From Chamaelirium japonicum (Eukaryota > Streptophyta > Magnoliopsida > Liliales > Melanthiaceae): a stretch of DNA of 64,000 nucleotides. Below the pieces are notes generated by a model that made no database searches, was not told the origin of the DNA, and saw nothing but the letters and a program-made list of their open reading frames with translations. How positions within the stretch are numbered: position 1 is the first letter of the stretch; every line of letters starts with the position of its first letter. The DNA lies in assembly GCA_947650365.1 (NCBI GenBank), contig OX393557.1:29191298-29255297 (forward strand). The letters are read 5' to 3'. This document shows positions 5,948 to 43,832 of the stretch, one piece after another. A program made the position numbers and the translations under genes.

Positions 5948-6407
5948 TAGACTCAGTTATAGATATAAACCATTTTCTTAACAAATACATGTTAATTGCA
6001 GGAGCAGGGCGGCGTCAAGGGATCGATGAGAGCACCAGCGTTGGTGGTGGGCGGGCGTGGTTGAGATAGGGCAGCGTCAGGGGATCGATGAGAGCACCAG
6101 CGTTGGTGGCGGGCGGGGGTGGTTGAGATAGGGCATGTATCATCTCTCAGTTCTGGATTGTGTAAATATTATTTTGTAATATGTGGTTATTTTTTGTTCT
6201 TGTCTATAATTGTCGGCCGGGTACTGTGGTAATATTTGATAATTTGCTGTAATTTTTTTATTAATTTAGGTAATATTTTAAAATTTGTGGTAATATTTTA
6301 TAAATTGTGGTAATATTTGATAAATTGTGGTAATATATTGTGGTATTGTTGTAAATCACAGGAATTAAATAACATTATTTAGATAAATTTATTTTAAAAA
6401 AAACATA
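5948..6407 (+). other. CACTA-1 spacer between satellite and subterminal repeats
   Basis: No gene is seen. The stretch starts with a tandem pair of about 65 bp around GATCGATGAGAGCACCAGCG (6000-6130), followed by AT-rich DNA with repeated GGTAATATTTGATAAATTG motifs. An almost identical segment follows the satellite in CACTA-2 at 40690-41150, so it is a fixed part of this family. Confidence 0.7.
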
Positions 6408-12056: not shown

Positions 12057-12359
<303 letters not shown>

Positions 12360-16291: not shown

Positions 16292-16932
<641 letters not shown>

Positions 16933-24092: not shown

Positions 24093-25393
24093 CTATTCCC
24101 TATTGAAGCCAGTGATGATAGTAGAGATTACTTCAAGGCTCTCGTACTTGTGACTGGGTCGCTTGAAACTATCGAAGAATATGATGTTGATGGAGCTGCC
24201 AAGGTCGATGAGGATTCGGTTGACGGAGGTTCCGTTGACAATGAGCCGGAGGACCAGGGGGTCCCAATATGGAGTGCAAACTCCGTTGAGGTCTTGGTCA
24301 ATGAAGATAATTGTCGGCCAAGGGAGATCTTTGATTGGCTTCTCGATCCAAGACTCCTCGACTTGAGCCACCGTGCGCACGTGGTGGACACGTTGCATTT
24401 GGCGTTCGACTTCTTTTTGAGTCAGAAATTGGTAGTGGAGATTACTGTGAATACCGTAGATCTCCGTCCAAATGACGATGGGGGTCGATTGACGCATGAC
24501 CGAACGGATCCAATATGTCTCCTTCTCTCTCTGAGGAGGGAGAGGAGGAGGAAGCAAATTGTCAACTGGGGCCGATGTCGGCCTTGAACTCCTGAAAGTG
24601 GCCTTCCGGCAAAAGGTCCTCCAAGTGGTACTTAAGACGATAGTATCGAATGGTAGGATGGTCGTGGCACCGGTAGAAATCACAGTAAATTGACTTGTCT
24701 TTCGTTTATTTGGTTCTAGGCTCAAGAGGGCCAGACCTCCTGAGGTATTCCTCGTGCTGGATTTGCTCAAGGATGATATTAATGGGCAGATTCTAGTCAA
24801 TGAACATGGTCCTCCGAGGCTTTGTGGGTCTATCGCCTTCGTGCTTCGATCTCTTGGAGGTTACACATTCCTTAGCCTGAGTATTATGAGTTCGAGCTAC
24901 TGGTCATGCCGGTACCTCGCCTAAAGGACACTTTTGAGATCACATCCCTTGCGTACAATTTGATCATCGTCCACCTCTATCTCCCTTTGGATTCGATCAA
25001 ATAGCGCTCTGAGAGAGGCAGGTGGATTGCGGATGAAGTTAATATAGATGTGAAGGTCGTAGCGTGAGGCGTTCTGGAACACGAGCATGACGGCTTCATC
25101 GTCGAGGTAACACCTGAAGAGCACTGCGTGCCCGTTCCAGAATCTATAAGTAAACTCTTGGAGGGTTTCATCGGAACCCATCCAAAGTCAGTACAGGGAG
25201 TCGAGCTTCTTCTCTGGCTTGAGGTTCAACCGGTAGTGCTGAACGAAAAGGTCTGCCAGGTCTTGGAACCAACTCACAGAGCCCGCTAGGAGGTGGTGAT
25301 ACCAATCGAGCGATATATCATCCAGGCTGCCCGCAAAGGTTCGACATAGAACCTGGTTGTCGTGGTCATATAGAGTTAATGCCTGTTTGAAAG
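24093..25393 (-). pseudogene. gag C-terminal part and protease remnant of the old gypsy element
   Basis: From right to left: a gag capsid segment beginning KQALTLYDHDNQVLCR with FAGSLDD and HYRLNLKPEKKLDSLY, continuing after a stop with MGSDETLQEFTYRF; a Cys/His-type segment with CDFYRCHDHPT; and a retropepsin-like segment with ILIDLGSSINIIFF, where D-L-G replaces the usual D-T/S-G. The first codon at 25393 joins the gag codons ending at 43833 once the younger element is removed. Several stops are present. Confidence 0.8.
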
Positions 25394-26014
25394 TGTGGGG
25401 GGAAATTTCCGAGCCGCCTTGATCGAGAATCCCACCCCACAACCTTGATTGAATTTGATGGTTTGTAGAGTTAAAGAGTTGGGAGAATATATAGAGAGAG
25501 TAAAGAGTGATGACACAAGGATTGGTGACGGAGTTCGATCTTACGACCTACGTCTTCGGGCGAGATGTGCCACCTGATCTTCACTATAATTTGAGTATAA
25601 AGGGTTGAGCGTTTCTCGACAGGCCGAGAGAAGCTTTTTACAGTGGCGGTTGCACGGAGCAACAAGAAAAGAAACTAGGAGGAGAGAAGTAAGCTCTTGC
25701 ACTTGCTCTGGATCTGGAATCCCTCTTCCTCTGATCGAATGACCAACCCCTTTCCTGGATGCCTTGGGGGTCCTTTTATAGCGTAGGCGCGTGCCCGATA
25801 TGGCAGTGATGACGTGGCACTGATGATGTGGCACTGGTTCTGGGCCTCCTTGCTGGGCCCTTATTGGGCCGTTGTTCGGGCCCAATAAGGGGTAGGGCTT
25901 GATCTGCGAGCCTCGTAGAGTGGGCCCATGTGAGCCCAGGCGGGCTTACCCATTTGGGCCGTTGCGCGGGCCCATGCTGCTCTGATCTGGTCCGGTACAA
26001 TTTTTGCACCCACA
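25394..26014 (-). repeat. 3' LTR of the young gypsy element
   Basis: A 621-bp repeat, near-identical to 43211-43832. Plus-strand ends are TGTGGGGGGAAATTTCC and TTTTTGCACCCACA. It abuts the GAAAG duplication on its left and a purine-rich tract (minus strand) on its right. Confidence 0.95.
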
Positions 26015-26032
26015 GTTACCCCCTCCCAGTCG
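26015..26032 (-). promoter_or_regulatory. Polypurine tract of the young gypsy element
   Basis: On the minus strand the bases next to the 3' LTR read GGGAGGGGGTAAC and then TGTGGG. A G/A-rich run here is where plus-strand DNA synthesis starts in LTR elements. Assigned by position and composition. Confidence 0.6.
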
Positions 26033-26129
26033 GGTCAGGACCCCCTGGGTCGGCGGGGATTCCAAGGTGCAAACGCTTTAGGATCCTAGCGCGGTTGGCG
26101 AGGGTTGTCGGTGCCGCAGTTCGTATTAG

Positions 26130-26460
26130 CAGAGCTTTCTTCCGCCGATGCCGAGACCCTTTTTGGCGCGAGCCAAAAAGTCTCGGTTTTGCGAGGGGGT
26201 GTTTCCAAAAAAACAGTGCGTTTTCCGACCGAGTAGATACCGAGAGGGTACCGAGTGCATACCGAGTGGGTACCGAGAGCATACCGGGTGGGTACCGAGA
26301 CCCTTTTGGTGCAAGCCAAAAAGTCTCGGTTTTGCAAGGGGGTGTTTCCGAAAAGGCAGTGCGTTTTCCGACCGAGTGGATACCGAGAGGGTGCCGAGTG
26401 CATACCGAGTGGGTACCGAGAGCATACCGGGTGAGTACCGAGACCCTTTTTGGTGAGAGA
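26130..26460. repeat. About 180-bp duplicated hairpin-rich unit
   Basis: Two copies (about 26150-26300 and 26300-26455) share CGTTTTCCGACCGAGT, a run of ACCGAG/GTACCGAG words, and a stem CCGAGACCCTTTTTGG facing GCCAAAAAGTCTCGG. It lies between the HSP90 fragment and the 3' LTR. No function is known. Confidence 0.75.
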
Positions 26461-26639
26461 ATAGCTTTTCTCTTATTTTTTTTCTTTCTTTGGCTTTGAC
26501 TCGCATGAGGAGCAAACGTCGCTCTCTCTCTCCCTTTCCTTTCTCTCTCTCTCCTTCCATTCTCTACTTTCCATTCACGTGAGAGAGCAGCGTACCCTGC
26601 TCTCTCTTTCCTTTCTCTCTCTCTCTTTCCTCTTTATTC

Positions 26640-27296
26640 CCGACGTCAGAGATTTCCTTCTCGGTGGTCCTCTCAGTCCACAGGGAGATGGGGTAGCTGA
26701 TGAACTCAGATTGTTTCTTCACCAGGTCCTTAAGGCGACGCTCCTCGAGGTATTCCAACTGGTCCTCCTTGAGGAAGAGGGTGATCTTCGTCCCTCTGCC
26801 AAGGACCTCTCCAGACGTGTCCCTGGTGACGGTGAAAGACTCGCCAGCCTGCGACTCCCAGGCATACTGCTCGTCGTCGTTGTGCTTGGTCGTCACCACC
26901 ACCCGATCGGCCACGAGGTAAGCCGAGTAGAACCCCACCCCGAACTGCCCGATCATGCTGACGTCGGCTCCGGCGGCAAGCGCCTCCATGAACTCCTTGG
27001 TCCCCGACCGGGCGATGGTGTCGAGGTTGTTAACGAGGTCGGACTTGGTCATCCCAACGCCGCTGTCGACGATGGAGATCGTGCTCGTGGCCTTGTCGGG
27101 GATGATGTGGATGAAGAGCTCCGGCTGGGCGTCCAGCTTGCTCTTGTCCGTCAGGCTCTTGAATCGTAACTTGTCCAGCGCATCGGAGGCGTTGCTGATG
27201 AGCTCGCGAAGGAAGATCTCCTTGTTGGAGTAGAAGGTGTTGATGATGAGGCTCAGCAGCTGGTTGATCTCCGCCTGGATGATGAAGAGCTCTACG
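26640..27296 (-). pseudogene. HSP90: HSP90 N-terminal exon fragment captured in the gypsy element
   Basis: About 210 codons, uninterrupted, match the ATP-binding N-terminal domain of cytosolic HSP90. Visible are [18 protein letters not shown], the GHKL N-box in [12 protein letters not shown] (E and N-x-x-D conserved), [21 protein letters not shown] and [21 protein letters not shown]90 is an ATP-dependent chaperone of the cytosol. The fragment starts around codon 10 and stops after TEKEISD, where the sequence turns into an unrelated GA-rich tail ending at 26564. The rest of the gene is absent. One conserved Gly in NNLGTIARSG is Asp. It lies in the same orientation as the retroelement and could be part of its transcript. 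The open frame shows recent capture or constraint; recency is simpler. Confidence 0.9.
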
Positions 27297-27820
27297 TCAT
27301 CAAGCTCTTCAGCCGCAAGCGCGCCGATTCCTGGGCCTCAGTCCGTGACGAGGTGGACGTCACCGTCCGTGCCGCCGCCGCCTCCGCGGCCGGATCCCCG
27401 ATCGACATTGGCCTGCTGGTCTTCAACCTCACCATGAACATCACCTTCCGGGCGGCCTTCGGGTCGCGGAACCACGAGGAGCAGGACGAGTTCATCGCCA
27501 TCCTACAGGAGTTCTCGAAGCTGTTCGGCGCGTTCAACATCGGCGACTTCATCCCGTGGCTCAAGTGGTTCGACCCGCAGGGCATCAACAAGCGGCTGAA
27601 CAAGGCCCGCGGGTCACTGGACCGCTTCATCGACACGATCATCGACGTGCACATCTTGAACCCGAAGGAATCCGACGCTCCGATCGCCGACATGGTCGAC
27701 AAAATGATCGCCTTCCTTACGGAGCCAAACCGGAGCGGAGGGGCGGTCGCCGCCGCCGCCGCCGATGATCTCCAGATGAGCCTCAGGCTGTCTAGGAATA
27801 ACATCAAGTCCATTATCATG
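27284..27820 (+). pseudogene. CYP84A: CYP84A (ferulate/coniferaldehyde 5-hydroxylase) exon fragment captured in the gypsy element
   Basis: About 178 open codons match plant CYP84A P450s, ER-bound enzymes of syringyl lignin synthesis. Visible are [72 protein letters not shown] and DDLQMSLRLSRNNIKSIIM. The exon ends at 27820 before GTACG, where CYP84A genes have an intron, and no following exon is present. The heme-binding and K-helix parts are therefore missing. The 5' part of the gene is also missing: the match begins at a junction with the HSP90 fragment, which lies tail-out on the other strand, near a GAGCTC word shared by both. Retained intron border means DNA or unspliced RNA was the source. 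Confidence 0.88.
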
Positions 27821-28860
27821 GTACGATCGTCTCGCCCTTTGGGTTTGGGTTGAGGTTGCAACGGGTTGAGCTGTGCTGCTGTGAAAAGGTTGCGCAGAGA
27901 GAGGGGGGGCGTGTGGTTGGTCCGTTTGGTTTGGGCTGCTGCGAAGAAAACGCATGATTCCCTTTCTCTGTCTTCTCTTCCTTTATTTGCCTTTTTGCCC
28001 TCCTTGTTTTTAATCCATGTGAAAGTATGAGGCCGTTGTTGATCCATGCATGAATGTGAAGTGAATCGATCGTGCGCGAGTGGAAGTGGGGGCAGAAACT
28101 TTCCTCTACTGATCCGCGTGAGTAGTTGTCCTTCTTTGTTGTGGTGAGCGGGATTGTGAGGTAGCTAGTGACGAGTTGATCTCTGGTTGTATGTCCGACC
28201 GTCCCAGGGGAAGGCTTCAAACTCTTTCAGCCACCATGTCCTCTCGTGCGAGTGTCAGATCGATGCACATAAGGTTCCATCATGCTGGCACCAAAAAAGC
28301 AGTCTGCGCGGTCGTGAGGTATCGGCCTCGTTGACATGTTGCTATTCCAATGTCTTCTTTGGGGAAAAAGACCTCAAAACCTCTCGACAGCCATAACTTT
28401 TCATACGTGCGTCGGATCAACGCGTATAAGGTGTCGTTGTGTCGGTGCCGAAAAACCGGTCAAAGTGGACGTGAAACATCATATACCTTGACGAGTAACT
28501 TTTCCGGTAATCACCTTCATAAGGAGATGACTCTAAAGAACGCGTTGGCCGAGTGTCCTACGCGCGTCTTGAAGAGGCATCGATACGCGGTAACTCATCC
28601 GTCTCTGTTCGATACCCAACTGCACCTAGTTACTGTATTCACTAGGGACTGCAGTCGGGCCCTAGTGATGACGCGGAGGTTACCACGAGTCCACCCCCAG
28701 ATAAGAAGGAGGAATTTTGCTTGTGAAGTTTGTACGGCCAACTCAATAGGTTTGTTGGAGATGCTATTCAACCAACCCAATGGAAGATAACTCTTCGTCT
28801 TCGGCTGATCCTTGTGTGCGAATGCCACTTGAATTGGATTGACTAATAAGTTTGGATGGC
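27821..28860. other. Non-coding part of the young gypsy element
   Basis: The first part may be intron DNA of the captured CYP84A copy. The rest holds diverged repeats of phrases such as CTTTCAGCCACCATGTC / CATAACTTTTCATACGTGCG and TACTGTATTCACTAGG; the latter recurs at 30046-30062. No gene is recognised. Confidence 0.5.
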
Positions 28861-28864
28861 GCCG

Positions 28865-29815
28865 AGCACCCCCCCTCTCGGTTTTCTATCGAAACCGAGG
28901 GGTGGGCTGCTGCTGGTGTGCCGTCGCACCCTCCCCACTTGGTTTTTCTGCGAAACCGAGGGGGGGGCTGCTTGTTGATGCCGACACACACCCCTTCTCG
29001 GTTTTCTGACGAAACCGAGGGGTGGTTGTAGCTGATGGCATGCCGTCACCCCCTCCCCACTCGGTTTTTGTACGAAACCGAGGGGAGAATTGCTTGTTGA
29101 TGCCGACCCACACCCCCTCTCGGTTTTCTGACGAAACCAAGGGGTGTGCTGCTGATGGTGTGCCATCACCCCTTCCCCACTCGGTTTTTGTGCGAAACCC
29201 AGGGGGGGCTGCTTGTTGATGCCGACACACACCCCCTCTCGGTTTTCTGACAAAACCGAGGGGTGGTTGTTTGTTGATGCCGACACACACCCCCTCTCGG
29301 TTTTCTGACGAAACCGAGGGGTGTGCTGCTGATGGTGTGCCGTCACCCCTTCCCCACTCGGTTTTTGTGCGAAACCGAGGGGGGCTGCTTGATGATGCCG
29401 ACACACACCCCCTCTCGGTTTTCTGACGAAACCGAGGGGTGGTTGTAGCTGATGGCATGCCGTCACCCCCTCCCCACTCGGTTTTTGTGCGAAACCGAGG
29501 GGAGAATTGCTTGTTGATGCCGACCCACACCCCCTCTCGGTTTTCTGACGAAACCGAGGGGTGTGCTGCTGATGGTGTGCCATCACACCTTCCCCACTCG
29601 GTTTTTGTGCGAAACCCAGGGGGGGCTGCTTGTTGATGCCGACACACACCCCCTCTCGGTTTTCTGACAAAACCGAGGGGTGGTTGTTTGTTGATGCCGA
29701 CACACACCCCCTCTCGGTTTTCTGACGAAACCGAGGGGTGTGCTACTGATGGTGTGCCGTCACCCCTTCCCCACTCGATTTTTGTGCGAAACCGAGGGGG
29801 GACTGCTTGATGCCG
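28865..29815. repeat. Hairpin minisatellite, about 60-bp unit with 417-bp higher-order repeat
   Basis: Sixteen units each hold CTCGGTTT, a short loop and AAACCGAGGGG, so every unit can fold into a stem-loop. Spacers alternate between TGCTGCTGATGGTGTGCCG, GGTTGTAGCTGATGGCATG and CTGCTTGTTGATGCCGAC types. The spacer order repeats after exactly 417 bp (29022 versus 29439). ORFs of up to 336 codons on the minus strand follow from the periodicity. Confidence 0.9.
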
Positions 29816-30329
29816 ACACCCCATTATTGGGGCTGCTAGAAGAGGCCAAGAAGTGTCAGTATTGAAAATAGTGTGTTTTTCGAATTTCAGCCCCATTTGA
29901 AACCGACACTTTTTCGGTAAAACGCTAGTGCGCGGGGATGTCGGTGAGGGACAATGCTATATTCGAGGGGGTTTCTTAGAGATAATCTAGGATGACACCG
30001 CATGATGGCCAGCTGGTCTTCACCCAATGTATTACCGCACCTGGTTACTGTATTCACCAGGTACTACGGTCACGTGAGGGTGTTGACTTGGCTAGGATCA
30101 AGGAAGCACCATTTTATCCCGTGTTTCCCACCGTCGACTGCACCAGTGTGGAGACACGCACTGACAGAGTCAGACCAACCACCCCCTGACTGGTTTGGAA
30201 CCGTTAGTCATCGAAAAAAAGGTGATGGCCAGTGACAATCTGATGCTTGGACTTGAGTGACAAGACTAAGTTTGGACTTTTGGTCGAATGCCAATACGTC
30301 AGCGACGATGTCTCGGACTTTATCTTTAT

Positions 30330-30760
30330 GTGTCAAGGGTAGGGCCTTGGGATTATAGAGTGCCGAGGTGTTGGTCGCCTTGGACTTTGCCTTCAAGTGC
30401 CAAGGGCTGGGCCTTGGGCTTGTAGAGTGCCGAGGAGCTGGTCGCCTCGGACTTTGTCATCGAGTGCCAAGGGCTGGGCCTTGGGCTTGTAGAGTGCCGG
30501 GGCATTGGTCACCTCGGACTTTGTCTTCGAGTGCCAAAGGCTGGGCCTTGGGCTTGTAGAGTGCCGAGGCATTGGTCACCTCGGACTTTGTCTTCGAGTG
30601 CCAAGGGCTGGGCCTTGGGCTTGTAGAGTGTCGAGGCACTGGTCACCTCGGACTTTGTCTTCGAGTGCCAAGGGCTGGGCCTTGGGCTTGTAGAGTGCCG
30701 AGGCATTGGTCACCTCGGACTTTGTCTTAGTGTGCCAAGGATGTCTCCTTGAACTTGGTG
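30330..30760. repeat. 67-bp tandem repeat in the young gypsy element
   Basis: About six copies of a 67-bp unit with GTGCCAAGGGCTGGGCCTTG and GGTCACCTCGGACTTTGTC. Diverged relatives sit at 19320-19450 in the old gypsy element, so the repeat is ancestral to both and was amplified in the younger one. Confidence 0.88.
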
Positions 30761-30834
30761 CATGTCAGGACGGCGACGTCTACCTTGGACTTATTCTCAT
30801 CGCCTCGGATAAGTGTAGTTGATAGTTTAGCTTG

Positions 30835-31830
30835 ACCTGGATTGTCAGGAGCATTTTTACCTGACTTTCGCCTGGAAAGGGCGTAGCCGAATTGCCTTCG
30901 AGCTTCCGCCTTGAACGGGCGGAATCGAAGGTCTTTGGTTGACCTGGGTTGCTAGGAGCCTTTTATCGGACTTTAGCCTCGATAGGGCGTAGCCGAATTG
31001 CCTTCGAGCTTCCGACTTGAATGGGCGGAATCAAAGGTCTTTGATTGACCTAGGTTGCCAGGAGCCTTTTTATCGGACTTTAGCCACGAGAGGGCGTAGC
31101 CGAATTGCCTTCGAGCTTCCGACTTGAATGGGCGGAATCGAAGGTCTTTGGTTGACCTGGGTTGCCAGGAGCCTTTTTATCGGACTTTAGCCTCGAGAGG
31201 GCGTAGCCGAATTGCCTTCGAGCTTCCGACTTGAATGGGCGGAATCGAAGGTCTTTGATTGACCTGGGTTGCCAGGAGCCTTTTTATCGGACTTTAGCCT
31301 CGAGAGGGCGTAGCCGAATTGCCCTCGAGCTTCCGACTTGAACGGGCAGAATCGAAGGCCTTTGGTTGACCTGGGTTGCCAGAAGCCTTTTTATCGGACT
31401 TTAGCCTCGAGAGGGCGTAGCCGAATTGCCTTCGAGCTTCCGACTTGAATGGGCGGAATCGAAGGTCTTTGGTTGACCTGGGTTGCCAGGAGCCTTTTTG
31501 TCGGACTTTAGCCTCGAGAGGGCGTAGCCAAATTGCCTTCGAGCTTCCGACTTGAACGGGCGGAATCGAAGGTCTTTGGTTGACCTGGGTTGCCAGGAGC
31601 CTTTTTATCGGTCTTTAGCCTCGAGAGGGCGTAGCCGAATTGCCTTCGAGCTTCCGACTTGAACGGGCGGAATCGAAGGTCTTTGGTTGACCTGGGTTGC
31701 CAGGAGCCTTTTTATCGGTCTTTAGCCTCGAGATGGCGTAGCCGACTTACCTTCGAGCTTCCGACTTGAATGGGCGGAATCGAAGATCTTTGGTTGACCT
31801 GGTTTGCCAGGAGCTTTTTTTTTTGCCTTA
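30835..31830. repeat. 107-bp tandem repeat in the young gypsy element
   Basis: About nine copies of a 107-bp unit marked by GGGCGTAGCCGAATTGCC, TTCGAGCTTCCGACTTGAA and GGTTGACCTGGGTTGCCAGG. Copies differ at a few positions each. It lies just downstream of the gag stop on the minus strand, in place of pol. Confidence 0.92.
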
Positions 31831-31998
31831 ATATGGTGGAATCGAACTTCGAGAGATTTGATTTGGAGAAAAAAAAAAAGACACTTTATTGATATAACAA
31901 AGTTGTAGTTACACTTTTTCAGAGGTTGCCCCGCGGACGTTACGATTACGCATCCACATATTACATTGACTTTCTTTTCTCCACTACTGCAGCCTCTC

Positions 31999-32173
31999 CT
32001 ACTCTCGACCTGGTCCCTTATTAGCGAGGTAGCCATCGAGCCGCCCTTCTTGGATCAGGTCTTCGATGTGATGCTTTAGCTTCCGACATGTAGAGGTTGG
32101 GTGGCCATGGCTGCGATGAAACTCACAGTAGGCTGTCGTATCTTCCGCCTGGTCGGAATTTGGAGGGAGAGGC
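31999..32173 (-). pseudogene. gag C-terminal end of the young gypsy element
   Basis: Continues gag from 41594 after removal of CACTA-2 and one copy of GGC; the frame runs through the junction without a stop. It encodes the Cys/His-type segment CEFHRSHGHPTSTCRKLKHH followed by IEDLIQEGRLDG, and ends in TAG at 31999. An AATAAA lies about 100 bp further on (minus strand), so the gag transcript could end here. No pol follows. Confidence 0.85.
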
Positions 32174-32885
32174 CACTACAAGAAAGAGGGTCTTTGCCGA
32201 CGGACATTTTTAGCACCGTCGGTAATAATACACTTTTTACCGACGGTGACTATAATATCCGTCGGTATTATAACTTTAATTTTTTAATTTTTTTATGCAC
32301 ATTTATTACCGACGGTCAAATAAAGTTCGTCGGTATAAATATTTATACCGACGGTACATATATGTCCCGTCGGTAATATACTTTATACCGACGGTTACAT
32401 AAATACCGTCGGTAAAATGTCACGACGAAACTCAGGGTAAAAACCGAGCCTCTGGAAAAAAATGTGACCCTGAGTTCCGTCGGAGAGTTTTACCGACGGA
32501 TGTTATATAGCCGTCGGTATAACTAATTATACCGACAGTAATTTAATGGTCGTCGGCAAGATACCGACGGTAGATAAATATCCGTCGGTAAAATTGTCCC
32601 GACGAAACACAGGGTAAAAACCGAGCCTCTGGAAAAAATGGAACCCTGAGTTTCGTCGGTGATTTGTACCGACGGAAATTATTGTTCCGTCGGTAAATGC
32701 CGACGGACATTATATATCCGTCGGTAAAAATATCACGACGAAACTCAGGGTAAAACCAAGCCTCTGGAAAAAAATGGAGACTGAGTTTCGTCGTCGTTGT
32801 TTACCGACGGAGAGTATAGTTCCGTCGGTAAAAATGTTATATTTACCGACGGATGTAAAAATGTCCGTCGGTAAAAATCCAGACA
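32174..32885 (+). repeat. CACTA-2 5' subterminal region with three long hairpins
   Basis: TTACCGACGG/CCGTCGGTAA motifs are interspersed with three copies of a 65-bp module (about 32418-32484, 32597-32662 and 32731-32796). In each, CGACGAAACTCAGGGT faces ACCCTGAGTTTCGTCG or a near variant around a loop with GAGCCTCTGGAAAAA. The stem outer bases overlap the CGACGG-type motif. These modules are not in the 3' ends. Confidence 0.88.
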
Positions 32886-32904
32886 TTAGTTACAATCAGC
32901 GATC

Positions 32905-33190
32905 CCCCCCCTTCTGTATTGTTTCGATCTAACCGGCCTCCCCGCCCCTCTCTCTCTCTCTCTCAATCTCCCCCCCTCCCCGGCCTCCCTCCCCCCCTCC
33001 CCGGCCTCCCCCCCCCTCCCCGGCCTCCCTCCCCCCCTCCCCGGCCTCCCTCACATCGCGTCCCTCCGGCCGACCGATCGACCGGCGGCAAGCTCCTCCT
33101 CCTCCTCGTGGGCTCCGGCCGGTGAGATCCTCCTCCTCCTCCCCCCGGTGAGCTCCTCCTCCCCCCGGTGAGTTCCTCCTCCTCCTCCTC
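32905..33190. repeat. Pyrimidine-rich minisatellite
   Basis: CT tract (32949-32965), then four or so copies of CCCCGGCCTCCCTCCCCCC, then CTCCTCCTCC words with CCCCCGGTGAG repeated. Likely the 5' leader region of the ancestral transposase gene, but no start codon or exon is identified. Confidence 0.6.
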
Positions 33191-33639
33191 CCTCTCTCCC
33201 CAAACTAAATGATGATCTGTGGGTTAGGCATGGGCAAACCTTTCAACCCTCCCAAGTCCCACCTCTTGCTAGAGAGGAAGCACCACTTGGACAAAAAGCT
33301 AGCCCGCTGGTTTTTTTTTTGTTGAGAAATCCCTCTTAAAGGATAAGCGATTGTTCGGCCTAGATCCCAACCAGCGTATTAAAAAAAAAAATCATCACTC
33401 AGAGAGAACAAAATTCAGACACGAAGGTTAAGATCGAAGGTACAAGAGCCCTTGGGTAAGATTTCTTTTTCTTGATGATACAAAACACTCACAACCTTCC
33501 TTCACTTAACCACTACCCCCACTTCCCCTAACTACTCATCAAATGTTACTATCATTGTCACTATCTCATTACTATTTCACAATCTTTATACTTCCTTGTA
33601 CACATGTTCAAGTGCCCCAATTAGAAGCTAAGCTTGCGG

Positions 33640-33933
33640 TTGGCTACACTTCTCATTTTTCGTATTCTACGCAAGAAACGTCTTTCGTTTACTTTGTTAG
33701 TTTTTAATTTCTTAAAAATGATAATATGTTATGTAGATTGTTTGATGGGACATGGCTTACTACTTCTTCGGTACAACGAGCCGAAGAAGTATTCCCCTGA
33801 TCGCTTGTCACGACCCGATTGGAAGCAGATGAACCCGATGGATTTTGCCGCCCAACAAAGAGTCAAACACCAAAAACTTCAAGAACAAAAGAGAATTTCT
33901 CCGTCCACTATCAAGACAATGATCTCGTTACTA
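33640..33933 (+). CDS. Unassigned small ORF inside CACTA-2
   Basis: An open frame of about 100 codons. Its second half (from about 33770) is hydrophilic and looks protein-like, with YSPDRLSRPDWKQMNPMDF and QEQKRISPSTIK, whereas the first half is AT-rich and may be intron. It ends at the left edge of a MITE. I do not recognise the protein. It could be a captured host exon, a remnant of the transposase gene, or chance. Confidence 0.25.
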
Positions 33934-34375
33934 TAGGGCTGTAAAACAAACCAAGCTGTTCGTGAGCAGCTCGAAAACAAGCTCGATAAAAGCTTGTTCG
34001 AGTTCGTTCATTTACTAGTCAAGCCAAGCCCAAGCCTAGAGTTTAGGCTTGTTTAATAAACAATCCAAGCTCAAGCAGACCAAAGCTCGGCTCAGTTGGG
34101 CTCGCAAACATGTCTGTTTAGAACTCGTGAGTAAGATCATGAGTAGGTTCATAAATGGCTTGAATAGACCCAACATATACAGTCCATTCTTTTGACTGAT
34201 TTTGGAGTTCAAGAGCAAGCTCGATAAAGGATTGTTCGATCACTAATTCAGCGTATCCTAGCCTGAAGTTTATCGATCACTAATTGATCGTATCCTAGCT
34301 TGAAGTTTAGGCTCGTTTAATAAACGAGCCAAGCTTAAGCAGACCAGAGCTCGGCTCGGCTTGTTCGCAGCCCTA
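33934..34375. mobile_element. hAT-like non-autonomous element / MITE
   Basis: Ends are TAGGGCTGTAAAACAAACC and GGCTTGTTCGCAGCCCTA, i.e. inverted TAGGGCTG-type termini as in common plant hAT-like MITEs. The inside is full of AAGCTCG/CGAGCTT words in both directions (AGCTCGATAAA, GCTCGTTTAATAAACGAGCC). No clean 8-bp duplication was found next to the ends. Confidence 0.6.
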
Positions 34376-34426
34376 CTTGCGAGAAGCAGAGAAACAAAAA
34401 AAATTAAAAGAGACCCAGAGGGCTAG

Positions 34427-34585
34427 CTTGCCTCATCTTATATAGGCTTTTGAACCTATAACCGAAAGAACCAGAGGGCTTGCTTGCCTCACCTTAAATA
34501 GGCTTTTGAAAGAACCAGATGGCTTTTGAACCTATAACCGAAAGAACCAGAGGGCTTTTGAACCTATAACCGAAAGAACCAGAGG
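34427..34585. repeat. Short tandem repeat bordering satellite block 2
   Basis: Three to four copies of TTTGAACCTATAACCGAAAG followed by AACCAGAGGG, some with an extra GCTTGCTTGCCTCA phrase. The last copy runs directly into the satellite at 34586. Confidence 0.8.
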
Positions 34586-37500
34586 GATCGAATCCAAACC
34601 TATTTCATATCCGAAACACGCTAACTTATGATTTTCCAACACTTAGACTCTAAATCGGTGAATCGGAGCGTAAATTGGTCAAATATCCAATTAGAACCCG
34701 CTCGCAAGTCCGAAATACGGAATAATTCCAACTTCGAATTATCGGATGCCGAGCCGATGACGATCGGATCGAATCCAAACCTATTTTATATCCGAAACAC
34801 GTTAACTTATGATTTTCCAACACTTAGACTCTAAATCGGTGAATCGGAGCGTAAATTGGCCAAATATCCAATTAGAACCTGCTCGCAAGTCCGAAATACG
34901 GAATAATTCCAACTTCGAATTACCGGATGCCGATCCGATGACGATCGGATCGAATCCAAACCTATTTCATATCCGAAACACGCTAACTTATGATTTTCCA
35001 ACACTTAGACTCTAAATCGGTGAATCGAAGCGTAAATTGGTCAAATATCCAATTAGAACCCGCTCGCAAGTCCGAAATACGGAATAATTCCAAGTTCGAA
35101 TTATCGGATGCCGAGCCGATGACGATCCGATCGAATCCAAACCTATTTTATATCCGAAAACTTATGATTTTCCAACACTTAGACTCTAAATCGGTGAATC
35201 GGAGCGTAAATTGGTCAAATATCCAATTAGAACCCACTCGCAAGTCCGAAATTCGGAATAATTCCAAGTTCGAATTATCGAATGCCGATCCGATGACGAT
35301 CCGATCGAATCCAAACCTATTTTATATCCGAAACACGCTAACTTATGATTTTCCGGAATAATTCCAAGTTCGAATTACCGGATGCCGATCCGATGACGAT
35401 CGGATCGAATCCAAACCTATTTCATATCCGAAACACGCTAACTTATGATTTTCCAACACTTAGACTCTAAACCGGTGAATCGGAGCGTAAATTGGTCAAA
35501 TATCCAATTAGAACCCGCTCGCAAGTCCGAAATACGGAATAAATCCAACTTCGAATTATCGGATGCCGATCCGATGACGATCGGATCGAATCCAAACCTA
35601 TTTCATATCCGAAACACGCTAACTTATGATTTTCCAACACTTAGACTCTAAACCGGTGAATCGGAGCGTAAATTGGTCAAATATCCAATTAGAACCCGCT
35701 CGCAAGTCCGAAATACGGAATAAATCCAACTTCGAATTATCGGATGCCGATCCGATGACGATCGGATCGAATCCAAACCTATTTCATATCCGAAACACGC
35801 TAACTTATGATTTTCCAACACTTAGACTCTAAACCGGTGAATCGGAGCGTAAATTGGTCAAATATCCAATTAGAACCCGCTCGCAAGTCCGAAATACGGA
35901 ATAAATCCAACTTCGAATTATCGGATGCCGATCCGATGACGATCGGATCGAATCCAAACCTATTTCACATCCGAAACACGCTAACTTATGATTTTCCAAC
36001 ACTTAGACTCTAAATCGGTGAATCGGAGCGTAAATTGGTCAAATATCCAATTAGAACCCGCTCGCAAGTCCGAAATACGGAATAATTCCAACTTCGAATT
36101 ATCGGATGCCGAGCCGATGACGATCCGATCGAATCCAAACCTATTTTATATCCGAAACACGCTAACTTATGATTTTCCAACACTTAGACTCTAAATCGGT
36201 GAATCGGAGCGTAAATTGGTCAAATATCCAATTAGAACCCGCTCGCAAGTCCGAAATACGGAATAATTCCAACTTCGAATTATCGGATGCCAAGCCGATG
36301 ACGATCGGATCGAATCCAAACCTATTTTATATCCGAAACACGCTAACTTATGATTTTCCAACACTTAGACTCTAAATCGGTGAATCGGAGCGTAAATTGG
36401 TCAAATATCCAATTAGAACCCGCTCGCAAGTCCGAAATACGGAATAATTCCAACTTCGAATTACCGGATGCCGATCCGATAACGATCGGATCGAATCCAA
36501 ACCTATTTCATATCCGAAACACGCTAACTTATGATTTTCCAACACTTAGACTCTAAATCGGTGAATCGGAGCGTAAATTGGTCAAATATCCAATTAGAAC
36601 CCGTTCGCAAGTCCGAAATTCGGAATAATTCCAAGTTCGAATTATCGAATGCCGATCCGATGACGATCCGATCGAATCCAAACCTAGCTATTTCATATCT
36701 GAAACACGCTAAGTTATGATTTTTCAACACTTAGACTCTAAATCGGTGAATCGGAGCGTAAATTGGTCAAATATCCAATTAGAACCCGCTCGCAAGTCCG
36801 AAATACGGAATAATTCCAAGTTCGAATTATCGGATGCCGAGCCGATGACGATCCGATCGAATCCAAACCTATTTTATATCTGAAACACGCTAACTTATGA
36901 TTTTCCAACACTTAGACTCTAAATCGGTGAATCGGAGCGTAAATTGGTCAAATATCCAATTAGAACCCGCTCGCAAGTCCGAAATACGGAATAATTCCAA
37001 GTTTGAATTATCGGATGCCAAGCCGATGACGATCCGATCGAATCCAAACCTATTTTATATCCGAAACACGCTAACTTATGATTTTCCAACACTTAGACTC
37101 TAAATCGGTGAATCGGAGCGTAAATTGGTCAAATATCCAATTAGAACCCGCTCGCAAGTCCGAAATACGGAATAATTCCAACTTCGAATTACCGGATGCC
37201 GATCCGATAACGATCGGATCGAATCCAAACCTATTTCATATCCGAAACACGCTAACTTATGATTTTCCAACACTTAGACTCTAAATCGGTGAATCGGAGC
37301 GTAAATTGGTCAAATATCCAATTAGAACCCGTTCGCAAGTCCGAAATTCGGAATAATTCCAAGTTCGAATTATCGAATGCCGATCCGATGACGATCCGAT
37401 CGAATCCAAACCTAGCTATTTCATATCTGAAACACGCTAAGTTATGATTTTTCAACACTTAGACTCTAAATCGGTGAATCGGAGCGTAAATTGGTCAAAT

Positions 37501-40500
37501 ATCCAATTAGAACCCGCTCGCAAGTCCGAAATACGGAATAATTCCAAGTTCGAATTATCGGATGCCGAGCCGATGACGATCCGATCGAATCCAAACCTAT
37601 TTTATATCCGAAACACGCTAACTTATGATTTTCCAACACTTAGACTCTAAATCGGTGAATCGGAGCGTAAATTGGTCAAATATCCAATTAGAACCCGCTC
37701 GCAAGTCCGAAATACGGAATAATTCCAAGTTTGAATTATCGGATGCCAAGCCGATGACGATCCGATCGAATCCAAACCTATTTTATATCCGAAACACGCT
37801 AACTTATGATTTTCCAACACTTAGACTCTAAATCGGTGAATCGGAGCGTAAATTGGTCAAATATCCAATTAGAACCCGCTCGCAAGTCCGAAATACGGAA
37901 TAATTCCAACTTCGAATTATCGGATGCCGAGCCGATGACGATCGGATCGAATCCAAACCTATTTTATATCCGAAACACGCTAACTTATGATTTTCCAACA
38001 CTTAGACTCTAAATCGGTGAATCGGAGCGTAAATTGGTCAAATATCCAATTAGAACCCGCTCGCAAGTCCGAAATACGGAATAATTCCAACTTCGAATTA
38101 CCGGATGTCGATCCGATGACGATCGGATCGAATCCAAACCTATTTCATATCCGAAACACGCTAACTTATGATTTTCCAACACTTAGACTCTAAATCGGTG
38201 AATCGAAGCGTAAATTGGTCAAATATCCAATTAGAACCCGCTCGCAAGTCCGAAATACGGAATAATTCCAAGTTCGAATTATCGGATGCCGAGCCGATGA
38301 CGATCCGATCGAATCCAAACCTATTTTATATCCGAAAACTTATGATTTTCCAACACTTAGACTCTAAATCGGTGAATCGGAGCGTAAATTGGTCAAATAT
38401 CCAATTAGAACCCACTCGCAAGTCCGAAATTCGGAATAATTCCAAGTTCGAATTATCGAATGCCGATCCGATGACGATCCGATCGAATCCAAACCTATTT
38501 TATATCCGAAACACGCTAACTTATGATTTTCCAACACTTAGACTCTAAATCGGTGAATCGGAGCGTAAATTGGTCAAATATCCAATTAGAACCCGCTCGC
38601 AAGTCCGAAATACGGAATAATTCCAACTTCGAATTACCGGATGCCGATCCGATGACGATCGGATCGAATCCAAACCTATTTCACATCCGAAACACGCTAA
38701 CTTATGATTTTCCAACACTTAGACTCTAAATCGGTGAATCGGAGCGTAAATTGGTCAAATATCCAATTAGAACCCGCTCGCAAGTCCGAAATACGGAATA
38801 ATTCTAAGTTCGAATTATCGGATGCCGAGCCGATGACGATCCGATCGAATCCAAACCTATTTTATATCCGAAACACGCTAACTTATGATTTTCCAACACT
38901 TAGACTCTAAATCGGTGAATCGGAGCGTAAATTGGTCAAATATCCAATTAGAACCCGCTCGCAAGTCCGAAATACGGAATAATTCCAAGTTCGAATTATC
39001 GGATGCCGATCCGATGACGATCCGATCGAATCGAAACCTATTTCATATCCGAAACACGCTAACTTATGATTTTCCAACTCTTAGACTCTAAATCGGTGAA
39101 TCGGAGCGTAAATTGGTCAAATATCCAATTAGAACCCGCTCGCAAGTCCGAAATACGGAATAATTCCAACTTCGAATTACCGGATGCCGATCCGATGACG
39201 ATCGGATCGAATCCAAACCTATTTCATATCCGAAACACGCTAACTTATGATTTTCCAACACTTAGACTCTAAATCGGTGAATCGGAGCGTAAATTGGTCA
39301 AATATCCAATTAGAACCCGCTCGCAAGTCCGAAATACGGAATAATTCCAAGTTCGAATTATCGGATGCCGAGCCGATGACGATCCGATCGAATCCAAACC
39401 TATTTTATATCCGAAACACGCTAACTTATGATTTTCCAACACTTAGACTCTAAATCGGTGAATCGGAGCGTAAATTGGTCAAATATCCAATTAGAACCCG
39501 CTCGCAAGTCCGAAATACGGAATAATTCCAAGTTCGAATTATCGGATGCCGAGCCGATGACGATCCAATCGAATCCAAACCTATTTTATATCCGAAACAC
39601 GCTAACTTATGATTTTCCAACACTTAGACTCTAAATCGGTGAATCGGAGCGTAAATTGGTCAAATATCCAATTAGAACCCACTCGCAAGTCCGAAATACG
39701 GAATAATTCCAAGTTCGAATTATCAGATGCCGAGCCGATGACGATCCGATCGAATCCAAACCTATTTTATATCCGAAACACGCTAACTTATGATTTTCCA
39801 ACACTTAGACTCTAAATCGGTGAATCGGAGCGTAAATTGGTCAAATATCCAATTAGAACCCGCTCGCAAGTCCGAAATACGGAATAATTCCAACTTCGAA
39901 TTACCGGATGCCGATCCGATGACGATCGGATCGAATCCAAACCTATTTCATATCCGAAACACGCTAACTTATGATTTTCCAACACTTAAACTCTAAATCG
40001 GTGAATCGGAGCGTAAATTGGTCAAATATCCAATTAGAACCCGCTCGCAAGTCCGAAATACGGAATAATTCCAAGTTCGAATTATCGGATGCCGAGCCGA
40101 TGACGATCCGATCGAATCCAAACCTATTTTATATCCGAAACACGCTAACTTATGATTTTCCAACACTTAGACTCTAAATCGGTGAATCGGAGCGTAAATT
40201 GGTCAAATATCTAATTAGAACCCGCTCGCAAGTCCGAAATACGGAATAATTCCAAGTTCGAATTATCGGATGCCGAGCCGATGACGATCCGATCGAATCC
40301 AAACCTATTTTATATCCGAAACACGCTAACTTATGATTTTCCAACACTTAGACTCTAAATCGGTGAATCGGAGCGTAAATTGGTCAAATATCCAATTAGA
40401 ACCCGCTCGCAAGTCCGAAATTCGGAATAATTCCAAGTTCGAATTATCGAATGCCGATCCGATGACGATCCGATCGAATCCAAACCTAGCTATTTGATAT

Positions 40501-40690
40501 CTGTAACACGCTAAGTTATGATTTTTCAACACTTAGACTCTAAATCGGTGAATCGGAGCGTAAATTGGTCAAATATCCAATTAGAACCCGCTCGCAAGTC
40601 TGAAATACGGAATAATTCCAAGTTCGAATTATCGGATGCCGATAATTCTACGATCGGATCGAATCCAAACCTATTTCAAAATCGAAACAC
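34586..40690 (+). repeat. 181-bp satellite array inside CACTA-2 (block 2)
   Basis: About 34 head-to-tail monomers of the same satellite as in CACTA-1. Variants with GAGCCGATGACGATCCGATC alternate with the GATCCGATGACGATCGGATC type. GCTA-insertion units at 36687 and 37415 mark a 728-bp higher-order repeat (36531-37258 repeated at 37259-37986). A fused double unit with an 8-9 bp deletion recurs at 34990 and 38168, 3178 bp apart. Three nearly identical units with an AAACCGGTG variant lie in a row at 35445-35987. The array shows both local and block-wise amplification. Confidence 0.95.
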
Positions 40691-41590
40691 GCTAACTTAT
40701 CATTTTTTAACGCTTAGACTCAGTTATAGATATAAACCATTTTTTTAACAAATACATGTTAATTGCAGGAGCAGGGCGGCGTCAGGGGATCGATGAGAGC
40801 ACCAGCGTTGGTGGTGGACGGGCGTGGTTGAGATAGGGCGGCGTCAGGGGATCGATGAGAGCACCGGCGTTGGTGGCGGGCGGGGGTGGTTGAGATAGGA
40901 CATGTATCATCTCTCAGTTCTGGATTGTGTAAATATTATTTTGTAATATATGGTTATTTTTTGTTCTTGTCTATAATTGTCGGCCGAGAACTGTGGTAAT
41001 ATTTGATAATTTGCTGTAATTTTTTATCAATTTAGGTAATATTTTATAAATTGTGGTAATATTTGATAAATTGTGGTAATATATTGTGGTATTGAATCAC
41101 AGGAATTAAATAACATTATTTAGGTAAATTTATTAAAAAAAAAAAATACTTATTACCGACGGAAATTAATTATTCCGTCGGTAATAATATTTTTATTTTT
41201 TTTAAATTATTAATGATTTGCCGACGGCATATAATATCCGTCGGTAATATATATAGTATTACCGACGGTTATATGAATTTGGTCGGTAATATATATATTA
41301 TTACCGACGGGTAATATATATATGTGTCGGTAATATATATATTATTACCGACAGTATGAAATATACCCGTCGGTAAAATGGTTATATATTACCGACGGCG
41401 TTAATATTACCGTCGGTATTAATTATTATTACCGACGGTAATATTTGGTCCGTCGTATTGTTTTCCCCGACGCCGTCTTTCCCGACAGCAAGCGACGGAA
41501 ATATCTTCCGTCGCTATAGAATATTACCGACGAAATTTTAATATTACCGACGGATAGTGTCCGTCGGTAATAACTGTTTTTTTTGTAGTG
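40691..41590 (+). repeat. CACTA-2 3' spacer, subterminal repeats and terminus
   Basis: Nearly the same as 5948-6959 of CACTA-1: the tandem GATCGATGAGAGCACC pair, the AT-rich GGTAATATTTGATAAATTG stretch, then CCGACGG/CCGTCGG subterminal motifs and the complement of CACTACAAAAAAAACAG. Small indels distinguish the two copies, including one missing motif pair around 41390. Confidence 0.92.
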
Positions 41591-41593
41591 GGC

Positions 41594-43070
41594 TGTGGCC
41601 ACTTGCAAAAGGGCTCGTTCTGCAAGTATGTGAAGATGTCTTCAATGGAGGTGTTCAGCTCAGTGAACACCCTTGCTCCTTTGGAGTTCGCCTCTTTTCT
41701 GCTGGAGGGGCTTTCGGATCTTCATTGTACCTTTTGGCCTGCACCTTTTGGTCGGACGCGGCATGGGCAGACTTCTTGTAGTGTGCTTCATTCGGAGCTT
41801 CATCATCTTTCTTATGTCGGGAGTCACGAGACTCGCGGGGCTCGCGTAGTCTTCTGGCCCGCTGATTGTCTTCCACCTCTATCTCCCGCTGTACGCGCTT
41901 GAACATCGCTTCCAAGTTATTGGGAGGATGTCGAATGAAGTCGGTGTAGACGTGGAGATCTGGCCGGATAGCATTCTAGAATGCCAGCATGATGGCCTCC
42001 TCATTATAGGAGCGACCGGTGAGCTCAGAATGCTCATTACGAAACCTCATCGTGAAGCTCCTTAGAGACTCGTCGGAGCCCATCTTCAGCTGGTAGAGTG
42101 TATCCAGCCTCTTTTTCGGCTTTAAGTTTAGCCGATAATGGTCCATGAAAAGTTCAGCCAACTCTTTGAATGTGGCCACCGTACCGGTAGGCAGTGTGTA
42201 GTACCAGTCGAGGGCAGGTCCCTCGAGGCTTCCTGCAAACATACGGCAGAGAACATGGTTCTCATATTCGTAGGGCGTCAGGGCCTGCTTGTAGGCTAGG
42301 ATATGGAGAGCGGGGTCTCCCCGGATGCAGTTGAATTTTGGTAGGTTCGGTGTTCGCCAACCCAAAGGAAATGGTGTTGCAAGAACCTTGGGATGCAGTG
42401 GCCCTACCGAGGTGATTAGTTGTCTACGGTCTTGATGGCGGCGTCCCACGTCGGCAGTATGCCTTAGTCGGTTGAGCAGCTCGCGGGCATCTGTTGCTTT
42501 CGTGTGCGAAGGGATAGAATGTCTAGTGGACCCTGTTGACTGAGGTGATCCTTCTCCGCGATAATTGGGCGCACCGTTGACGTCGAGGCGATCCCACACC
42601 GTTTGCCTTGGTGCTTGTGTGGATACTTGACGCCTCTCGATACGTGGCACATGTGATTCTTCAAGATGATGAATCACGGCTGGGCGAGTCCTTGGTTGGT
42701 ATTCATCAGCAGTTGGAGAGTTGTGGGCCACAACCCCCGCTCTTTCAGCTACCTTCTTTAGGGAATCCCTCTCTTGCTCGAGGGCTGCGTTCCTTTTGAG
42801 AAGGTTCAACAGCTGGAAATCAGCAGCCGAGATCTCGTATGTGGCCTGAGGCTTGCTCCCTTGAATAGCGTGTTCTTTTCCCGATCGACGCCTCGGGGAT
42901 GACGGGTCTCGCCGATCGCTGTGCCCTTTTGGATGGCTGCCTTGCGGCCCCAGCCACTCCCGAACATTTCTTTGGTTGGTTGCAACCGAGACTTCTTGTT
43001 CTTCTTCGATCAGCATATCGTTTGTTCGTTTAGCACCCGCCTTTGGTGGGTTGGTGCTGGCCTTCCCCAT
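41594..43070 (-). pseudogene. gag of the young gypsy element, N-terminal and capsid part
   Basis: Starts MGKASTNPPKAGAKRTND at 43070. It contains a short coiled-coil stretch (ISAADFQLLNLLKRNAALE), a basic/Ser-rich linker and then the plant gypsy gag core: LPKFNCIRGDPALHILAY, NHVLCRMFAGSLEGPALDWY, HYRLNLKPKKRLDTLYQLKM and IMLAF. After that comes a TAG (about 41974-41976) where the related copy has a Gln codon, then the frame resumes. A further single-base shift lies near 41660-41680. gag packages the RNA into particles. With one stop and one frameshift this copy is probably inactive now, though the damage is small. The N-terminal end is open and uninterrupted for 364 codons. Confidence 0.85.
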
Positions 43071-43189
43071 CGAGCGTGTTGATGTCGGCGTGATGAAGGC
43101 GTTGAGGTTGATTTGGAGGAGGACTTGTGGCTCGTCACCACAAGCTGAATAGGAGTCGGTAGAGGTGTGGGTAAGACCTCTATCGATAT

Positions 43190-43205
43190 CCCACAGACGG
43201 CGCCA
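43190..43205 (-). promoter_or_regulatory. Primer binding site of the young gypsy element
   Basis: On the minus strand, five bases after the LTR end, TGGCGCCGTCTGTGGG is read. Its first ten bases are complementary to the 3' end of plant tRNA-Asp, the usual primer of Tat/Athila-type gypsy elements. This fixes the orientation of the element. Confidence 0.8.
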
Positions 43206-43210
43206 AAGAT

Positions 43211-43832
43211 TGTGGGGGGAAATTTCCGAGCCGCCTTGATCGAGAATCCCACCCCACAGCCTTGATTGAATTTGATGGTTTGTAGAGTTAAAGAGTTGGG
43301 AGAATATATAGAGAGAGTAAAGAGTGATGACACAAGGATTGGTGACGGAGTTCGATCTTACGACCTACGTCTCTGGGCGAGAGGTGCCACCTGATCTTCA
43401 CTATAATTTGAGTATAAAGGGTTGAGCGTTCTCTCGACAGGCCGAGAGAAGCTTTTTACAGTGGGGGTTGCACGGAGCAACAAGAAAAGAAACTAGGAGG
43501 AGAGAAGTAAGCTCTTGCACTTGCTCTGGATCTGGAATCTCTCTTCCTCTGATCGAATGACCAACCCCTTTCCTGGATGCCTTGGGGGTCCTTTTATAGT
43601 GTAGGCGCGTGCCCGATATGGCAGTGATGATGTGGCGCTGATGACGTGGCACTGGTTCTGGGCCTCCTTGCTGGGCCCTTATTGGGCCGTTGTTCGGGCG
43701 CAATAAGGGGTAGGGCTTAATCTGCGAGCCTCGTAGAGTGGGCCCATGTGAGCCTAGGCGGGCTTACCCATTTGGGCCGTTGCGCGGGCCCATGCTGCTC
43801 TGATCTGGTCCGGTACAATTTTTGCACCCACA
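43211..43832 (-). repeat. 5' LTR of the young gypsy element
   Basis: 622 bp, near-identical to 25394-26014. Followed directly by GAAAG, the second copy of the target duplication. ORFs inside it are not genes. Confidence 0.95.

Follow-up and report, generated by a model that had tools for sequence, protein, structure and literature searches.

The window, the whole analysed stretch of 64,000 nucleotides of Chamaelirium japonicum DNA, contains on its minus strand an LTR element (25394–43832) that measures about 9.0 kb once a nested CACTA insertion is subtracted. Self-comparison identified its 5′ LTR (43211–43832, 622 bp) and 3′ LTR (25394–26014, 621 bp), both on the minus strand, as a pair with 97.9% identity (K 0.021), and the 5-bp target site duplication (TSD) GAAAG is present on both sides of the element at 25389–25393 and 43833–43837. 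The polypurine tract (PPT) ACTGGGAGGGGGTAAC (26015–26030, minus strand) adjoins the 3′ LTR, and the same 16 bases are found in 12 of 12 measured elements, the window copy included. Next to the 5′ LTR lies the PBS-like sequence TGGCGCCGTCTGTGGG (43190–43205, minus strand). A tRNA-Asp primer site had been named in a sequence-only reading of this DNA; the PBS-like sequence is there, and its tRNA-Asp type is presumed. Matched LTRs, TSD, PBS-like sequence and PPT mark the window copy as an LTR retrotransposon.

The gag gene is split into a 5′ part (41591–43070, minus strand), which includes a Retrotrans_gag frame (Pfam PF03732, E 2.7e-7) at 41976–43070 on the same strand, and a 3′ part (31841–32173, minus strand). 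The 9.4-kb insertion between them (32174–41590, no strand assigned) has TIRs beginning CACTACAA and a 3-bp duplication, GGC, and is thus a CACTA DNA transposon; a 181-bp satellite array occupies 34.4–40.7 kb inside it. In 11 of 16 sibling elements the CACTA site is empty and the two parts of gag are continuous. The LTR pair, the GAAAG duplication, the gag and the PPT of the sequence-only reading were all recovered. Its single element at 25394–43832 keeps its LTR borders, but half of it is a later CACTA insertion that had been overlooked, and the TIRs and GGC duplication rule out a single element spanning all 18.4 kb.

The remaining interior, all on the minus strand, comprises a 3′ untranslated backbone (UTR3, 26031–26464) that forms the 3′ border of a cargo slot and is present in members with and without the gene block described below; a cluster of three PPTs (26465–26635), detected by a tract scan at 26465–26491, 26522–26558 and 26600–26635 with the purines on the element-sense strand; backbone and older slot sequence (PostCYP and Mid1, 27836–28845), found partly in members lacking CYP84A; and an internal tandem-repeat region (28846–31840) that was delimited by self-BLAST and has homologues in the siblings. 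As the sequence-only reading had held, no pol was recognised: Pfam, run on five open frames of a sibling without interruption (L020), detected gag alone and none of the domains protease, reverse transcriptase, RNase H and integrase, as in TR-GAG elements, and the absence of pol in other siblings was judged solely by homology to window segments. As part of an overall explanation that is, taken as a whole, probable, the window copy is assigned to a large non-autonomous Ty3/Gypsy-type LTR family, TR-GAG-like and having gag without visible pol.

Between the PPT cluster and the older slot sequence lie two host gene fragments. The HSP90 fragment (26640–27279, minus strand; PF00183 on that strand, E 9.3e-12) consists of three joined exons without introns, A (27182–27279), B (26759–27181) and C (about 26640–26758), which were located by BLASTN to a gene on C7 (L027/L028). 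It aligns with the three source exons over 651 nt with 21 differences and zero gaps. Since the 99-bp and 10.9-kb GT-AG introns of the source are both exactly missing, the fragment is derived from spliced mRNA. It lies within the coding sequence and has neither a 3′ end nor poly-A; on its 3′ side it enters the purine cluster directly, meeting a PPT where the source itself becomes purine-rich.

HSP90 homology stops at 27279 and CYP84A homology begins at 27288, leaving an 8-nt join (27280–27287, no strand assigned) that matches neither source. The second fragment (27288–27835, plus strand, antisense to the element; PF00067 on the plus strand, E 2.7e-7) is part of a CYP84A-like exon 1 with up to 15 nt of intron 1. 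We take it to be CYP84A by eye, Pfam giving P450 and no finer name. It matches C2:45487251 (L029) at 517 of 548 positions with 9 gap positions. The exon ends at 27820, and the next 15 nt correspond to intron 1 of the source except for two mismatches. Their final 8, CGTCTCGC (27828–27835, no strand assigned), also match the element backbone, as seen by comparison with L029, L034 and L042; a microhomology of 8 nt is reached in a fraction of 7.5e-5 of 200,000 random joins of both sequences. The strands of the two fragments, their meeting near 27290 and the end of the CYP84A piece at an intron border with the intron start retained are as the sequence-only reading had described them. Judged from sequence, both pieces are real and far above chance, given the gapless 651-nt HSP90 alignment and the presence of 17 copies of the block in the genome. 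The search for source genes that had been proposed led to the HSP90 gene on C7; for CYP84A the best paralogue is 94% identical and the direct source is not settled.

The 17 copies of the block, in the window copy and 16 siblings, have common junctions. All 16 siblings agree with the window copy at both HSP90/CYP84A junctions, the 8-nt join varying by point differences only; therefore, the window copy was not the acquirer of the block, and acquisition by this copy alone is ruled out. The earlier proposal of a non-autonomous element that acquired DNA from two unlinked genes thus stands as regards gag, non-autonomy and the two host fragments, but the acquisition preceded the window copy and HSP90 was taken up as spliced RNA. 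HSP90 is truncated in 10 of the 17 copies and gag is reduced to a fragment in 5 of the 16 siblings. Among 12 measured elements, exact 5-bp TSDs were found in seven, one more when shifted by one base, TSDs with one mismatch in two and none in two; the identity of LTR pairs reaches 100%. Two siblings, L017 and L018, carry HD-ZIP IV together with HSP90/CYP84A. Like maize Bs1, to which it had been compared, the element thus contains pieces of host coding sequence that are copied along with it.

Comparison of members revealed that the region between the conserved 3′ untranslated stretch and the conserved middle region is a variable cargo slot. Among 25 sampled members that lack the block, six have other recognisable genes in this slot, namely uS5, HD-ZIP IV, SAHH, GT47 with an antisense NmrA-like patch, NAC and an NF-YC-like gene; across the family nine host genes were recognised. 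The slots are mosaic in composition, and cargo-bearing sequences have been amplified to roughly 5–30 places each. No gene was recognised in 19 of the 25 slots, 14 of which were scanned in selected open frames and five of which are unscanned near-duplicates (L037, L039, L041, L047 and L049). From 13 slots, 131 open frames were selected, excluding frames shorter than 58 residues or of low complexity; Pfam gave no match to them at 0.001, and two marginal matches lay at 0.004–0.006. Slot sequence of the L036 group occurs repeatedly in the genome and pointed to no host gene.

The uS5 cargo (L050) has lost a 763-bp GT-AG intron and includes 66 nt upstream of the ATG; in source and element alike, the match continues into purine-rich DNA. 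The second of the joined exons, by eye, does not encode uS5. Capture from spliced RNA, as in Bs1, is thus indicated for HSP90 (two introns) and uS5 (one intron), and n = 2 because a clear multi-exon source is known for these two cargoes only. The antisense CYP84A and NmrA-like pieces keep an intron start, so that an origin from genomic DNA is possible for them. No clear source was found for GT47, SAHH (its match is split by about 128 bp at several places), the NF-YC-like gene or a dioxygenase, whose match in L032 is below the Pfam cut-off. The best gene-like match of HD-ZIP IV (86%) and the best source candidate for NAC (81%) leave the direct source not settled. The HD-ZIP piece in L017 had no Pfam match in the frame tried and was assigned by DNA identity with L053. 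For the cargo of L054 a single frame was compared with Pfam and gave no match; by eye this cargo resembles a plant membrane protein.

PPTs are concentrated in the slot and strongly oriented. In 24 loci, 100 lie on the element-sense strand and 4 on the opposite strand; in 20 of those loci 78 were observed against 1.9 expected. In 7 of the 16 siblings, 32 tracts fall within 15.7 kb of slot and 2 within the remaining 34.2 kb. Both cargoes of known spliced origin, HSP90 and uS5, end at an element-sense PPT, these two being the cargo ends comparable with a source for purine content. The slot PPTs could also be simple-repeat growth independent of capture.

From its sequences, the family appears to have acquired pieces of host genes repeatedly and to have spread them. 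It is probable that host RNAs were taken up at the purine-rich 3′ slot of this non-autonomous, TR-GAG-like family by template switching and were then amplified and reshuffled. This explanation draws on the common slot, its varied cargoes, the exact intron loss in two of them, the 17 copies with identical junctions, one 8-nt microhomology and the sense purine tracts. As to packaging, the order and strand of each jump and the helper, we infer the following. Host RNAs would be co-packaged with element RNA and copied into the element by template switching of reverse transcriptase. First-strand synthesis would exit the element at a PPT and enter a purine-rich stretch of a host mRNA, the spliced mRNA would be copied toward its 5′ end, and synthesis would then return to element RNA. 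The antisense pieces were probably added during second-strand synthesis, from unspliced transcripts via short microhomologies, and the chimera would be multiplied and reshuffled by ordinary retrotransposition with pol supplied in trans.

Capture at the DNA level, by a Pack-type TIR transposon or a Helitron that carried both fragments into an ancestral element, is very unlikely. Such elements bear gene fragments in plants (PMC13317346), intron starts survive in the CYP84A and NmrA-like pieces, and a CACTA element is nested elsewhere in the window copy. However, no inverted-repeat pair of at least 14 nt flanks the block within 26016–28845, where one short palindrome was detected, and a TIR element enclosing the block, Pack-type or otherwise, was therefore rejected; the Helitron version is disfavoured solely by the exact intron loss in HSP90 and uS5, and varied cargoes occupy one slot. 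Either flanking TIRs or a pol region at the same place in siblings would have spoken against the sequence-only reading; all 16 fetched siblings hold the block there, and no pol was found at that place (Pfam scan of one sibling). Processed pseudogenes made by LINEs, inserted in the element and carried along, would account for the spliced HSP90 and uS5 sequences; however, the HSP90 piece is coding-internal, lacks a 3′ end and poly-A and abuts the purine cluster of the element, and several genes at one slot would require repeated targeting, which makes this origin highly improbable.

Recombination between elements after few captures is a possible, if doubtful, main source of slot diversity. Mosaic slots, the joining of HD-ZIP IV to HSP90/CYP84A in L017 and L018, and the intra-family recombination during bursts reported for Onsen (PMC5668417) are in line with it, but nine recognised host genes require several captures, which recombination merely shuffles; it is a partner of template switching more than an alternative. 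That the cargo was kept because element or host profits from it, through antisense or siRNA action against CYP84A or HSP90, for instance, or through escape from silencing by similarity to the host, is unlikely. The amplification of cargo-bearing sequences and the LTR pairs of up to 100% identity would agree with a benefit, but the fragments are partial, the truncation of HSP90 is common, and hitch-hiking is enough to explain the spread; the HSP90 differences of the window copy from its source by codon position (4, 6 and 11) do not tell selection on the element apart from selection on the source gene.

Template switching into a shared slot thus remains the favoured explanation, and it can be compared with known systems. 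Maize Bs1 is an LTR element that gained several host gene segments by transduction (PMC13317346); the present family shares such segments, whereas here different genes occupy the same slot of one family, in roughly 5–30 places each and with antisense patches. TR-GAG elements likewise have LTRs and gag without pol, and gag-only elements are noted in oil palm (PMC4608283), but here there is a host cargo slot, and 5 of 16 siblings have a gag fragment only. Retand/Tat elements have a long tandem-repeat region before the 3′ LTR, antisense coding pieces and non-autonomous members (PMC11963269); the likeness is in the layout before the 3′ LTR, by architecture alone since the element itself shows no recognisable reverse transcriptase, and the cargo here matches host genes. 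Many LTR elements of rice and sorghum hold host genes (PMC3726574; PMC13317346), but these accounts, so far as seen, mention neither a fixed slot nor purine tracts within a single family. The BARE-2 and Veju chimeras gained sequence through abnormal template switching (PMC13317346), though of element or unknown DNA and not a series of host mRNAs.

In the titles and abstract openings of the literature, no family-wide cargo slot and no PPTs linked to host-gene capture were recognised, and gene capture by plant LTR elements appears in the review literature, so far as seen, as single cases like Bs1 or genome-wide lists (PMC13317346). The family may best be read as maize Bs1 in the form of a family-wide cargo slot. 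One slot with several cargoes, traceable sources, exact intron loss and readable junctions opens the capture step itself to study, including which RNAs are taken, on which strand, at which motifs and how often, and whether cargo is of use to the element or leads to silencing of its source. More tentatively, the sense PPT array by the 3′ LTR may be a standing docking and strand-transfer zone, through which the elements would continually load, exchange and broadcast spliced host pieces, along with antisense patches derived from unspliced RNA. If so, this capture device would be the retroelement counterpart of Pack-type transposons.

The window comes from contig C9 in a genome of 1.52 Gb, whose genes and elements point to a plant, and includes a minus-strand LTR element at 25394–43832. 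Its two LTRs, 621 and 622 bp long, share 97.9% identity (K 0.021), and GAAAG is present on both flanks; further components are a sequence resembling a primer site, a polypurine tract and, by Pfam, a gag domain (PF03732). A Pfam scan of five open frames from one sibling, i.e. one of the further copies described below, revealed gag and no pol domain. In 5 of 16 siblings gag is reduced to a fragment, and hence it seems from these sequences to be dispensable in cis. Internal tandem-repeat arrays with varying unit lengths, the extent of which differs among siblings, lie between gag and the cargo (28846–31840). By eye, the left flank (24093–25393) looks like minus-strand gag plus protease from a further Gypsy-type element, and the element may therefore sit inside an older relative; no Pfam match was obtained in 24093–24800 at 0.001.

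A 9,417-bp CACTA DNA transposon at 32174–41590, with TIRs that begin CACTACAA and a GGC duplication, divides gag in two. In 11 of the 16 siblings the two parts of gag adjoin directly, overlapping by 3 bp, and so represent the empty site of the CACTA; the remaining five lack the gag part spanning that site. Discounting the insert, the element proper is therefore ~9.0 kb. The nested CACTA contains a 181-bp satellite array of about 35 tandem units, and is probably non-autonomous, since no open frame of ≥130 residues was listed in it. At 755–6959 there is another 181-bp array together with a CACTA end resembling the nested one; a CACTA family may be dispersing such satellite arrays. In L024, a sibling locus, array pieces and CACTA sequence lie on both sides of the LTR element (1–1618 and 9126–9898); thus, these LTR elements are found inside satellite-bearing CACTAs as well as the reverse. 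Highly similar simple-repeat tracts at 12058–12358 and 16292–16930 match each other on both strands.

The cargo of the window copy is a block of two fragments: HSP90 at about 26640–27279 on the minus strand, which is the element's own, and a CYP84A-like piece at 27288–27835 on the plus strand, antisense to the element. Pfam assigns the latter to P450 only, the name CYP84A coming from inspection by eye and from the sequence-only reading. That reading had asked whether other copies share the block, and they do. A whole-genome search gave 43 matches, from which 16 further copies were fetched, and the CYP84A piece is present in 17 of 17 copies, window copy included. All 16 siblings have the family LTR and internal segments, with two LTRs within the fetched stretch in 12 and one in 4, and both block junctions are identical in all of them, point differences allowed. 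Across the 17 copies HSP90 is full in 7, limited to positions 234–649 in 2 and to 413–649 in 8. LTR-pair identity is 97.4 to 100% in the 12 elements measurable at both LTRs, window included.

The LTR search gave 3520 first-look candidates, 40 of which were scored. Twenty-five block-free members were examined, namely L031–L034 (LTR hits), L035–L054 (20 of 41 matches) and L058 (the shortest LTR pair noticed); this sampling, by similarity to the family's LTR and UTR3, was non-random. Between UTR3, the conserved 3' untranslated backbone, and the conserved middle region they carry different sequence, mosaic from member to member. Six of the 25 slots gave a Pfam match that passed the curated cut-off: GT47 (L031), NF-YC-like (L032), SAHH (L043), ribosomal uS5 (L050), HD-ZIP IV PDF2_C (L053) and NAC (L058). 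Selected frames scanned in 14 of the other 19 slots gave no convincing match, the five near-duplicate slots being left out of the scan; slots without Pfam-recognisable content are the majority of those sampled.

The cargoes have been amplified in the genome. Each count, obtained by searching the whole genome, is a minimum that includes the queried copy unless stated, and LTRs were checked at a minority of the places. uS5 occurs at a minimum of 15 further places at 95–97%, five of them beside LTR-search matches; HD-ZIP IV at at least 7 places at 97% or more, two of which (L017 and L018) also bear HSP90/CYP84A; GT47 at at least 9 places at 96% or more, plus at least 13 at 86–87%; the L032 cargo at at least 7 places at 98% or more; NAC at at least 19; and the L054 cargo at about 30 or more. 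SAHH was found at at least 5 places at 98% or more; at several SAHH places (matching L043 800–1350) about 128 bp divide the match into two parts that overlap by 16 nt, which may reflect an intron, an insertion or a duplication.

For HSP90 the best-matching source gene lies on C7, and the window copy joins its 98-nt exon, its 423-nt exon and 130 nt from the start of the following exon in a gap-free alignment of 651 nt with 21 differences; two GT-AG introns, of 99 bp and about 10.9 kb, are removed exactly at the splice sites. The uS5 match to a C34 gene begins 66 nt before the ATG, covers exon 1 (717/730) and extends into a further exon (155/163), by eye other than uS5 coding, the 763-bp GT-AG intron between them being absent from the cargo. 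The CYP84A piece shares 517/548 identities with a gene at C2:45487251 and, as proposed from sequence alone, reaches the intron border: the exon end is followed by 15 nt that agree with intron 1 at all but two positions. The final 8 of these, CGTCTCGC, are also the backbone reading in L034 and L042, both lacking CYP84A, and thus 7 to 15 nt are of intron origin. Eight matching letters were reached in 7.5e-5 of 200,000 random joins of the CYP84A source stretch and L034. In L031 an antisense NmrA-like piece from C1 (PF05368 on the source exon) interrupts the GT47 sequence; at L056, a related place with LTR status outside the comparison, this piece extends over the end of exon 1 and about 18 nt similar to intron 1, three of them mismatched. 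Thus, the two sense cargoes traced to multi-exon genes are both spliced, and both antisense pieces carry an intron start. Spliced capture, as read from these alignments, is based on two cargoes.

Polypurine tracts were called by one scoring rule. L031–L054 (24 loci) have 100 on the element-sense strand versus 4 on the opposite strand, and L035–L054 have 78, whereas 50 first-order Markov resamplings gave 1.9 on average and never more than 7. Among the siblings, counts for 7 of the 16 place 32 tracts within 15.7 kb of slot sequence and 2 within the other 34.2 kb. The HSP90 3' end lies within a few bases of a tract cluster (26465–26635), and its source becomes purine-rich at the same point; the uS5 match likewise ends running into purine-rich DNA in source and element alike. 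The tract scan revealed no strong polypurine tract adjoining the CYP84A end.

In this family, host-derived and partly spliced fragments occupy a fixed slot, are copied with the element and form mosaics, and purine tracts and one clear microhomology accompany them. A cargo slot shared across a family and holding spliced host RNAs is not described in the accessible parts of PMC3726574, PMC11963269 and PMC4608283, and none was recognised in a literature search whose scope left subscription literature largely outside. Selection on the element and selection on the source are indistinguishable in the codon-position counts. Under the most probable mechanism, host mRNAs would be packaged together with element RNA, pol being supplied by an unseen helper. 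First-strand synthesis would switch from the purine tract of the element to a stretch of the mRNA rich in purines, copy the mRNA 5'-ward and return to the element; antisense patches would enter during second-strand synthesis from an unspliced RNA template. Intra-family recombination during bursts, reported for Onsen (PMC5668417), would account for the slot mosaics.
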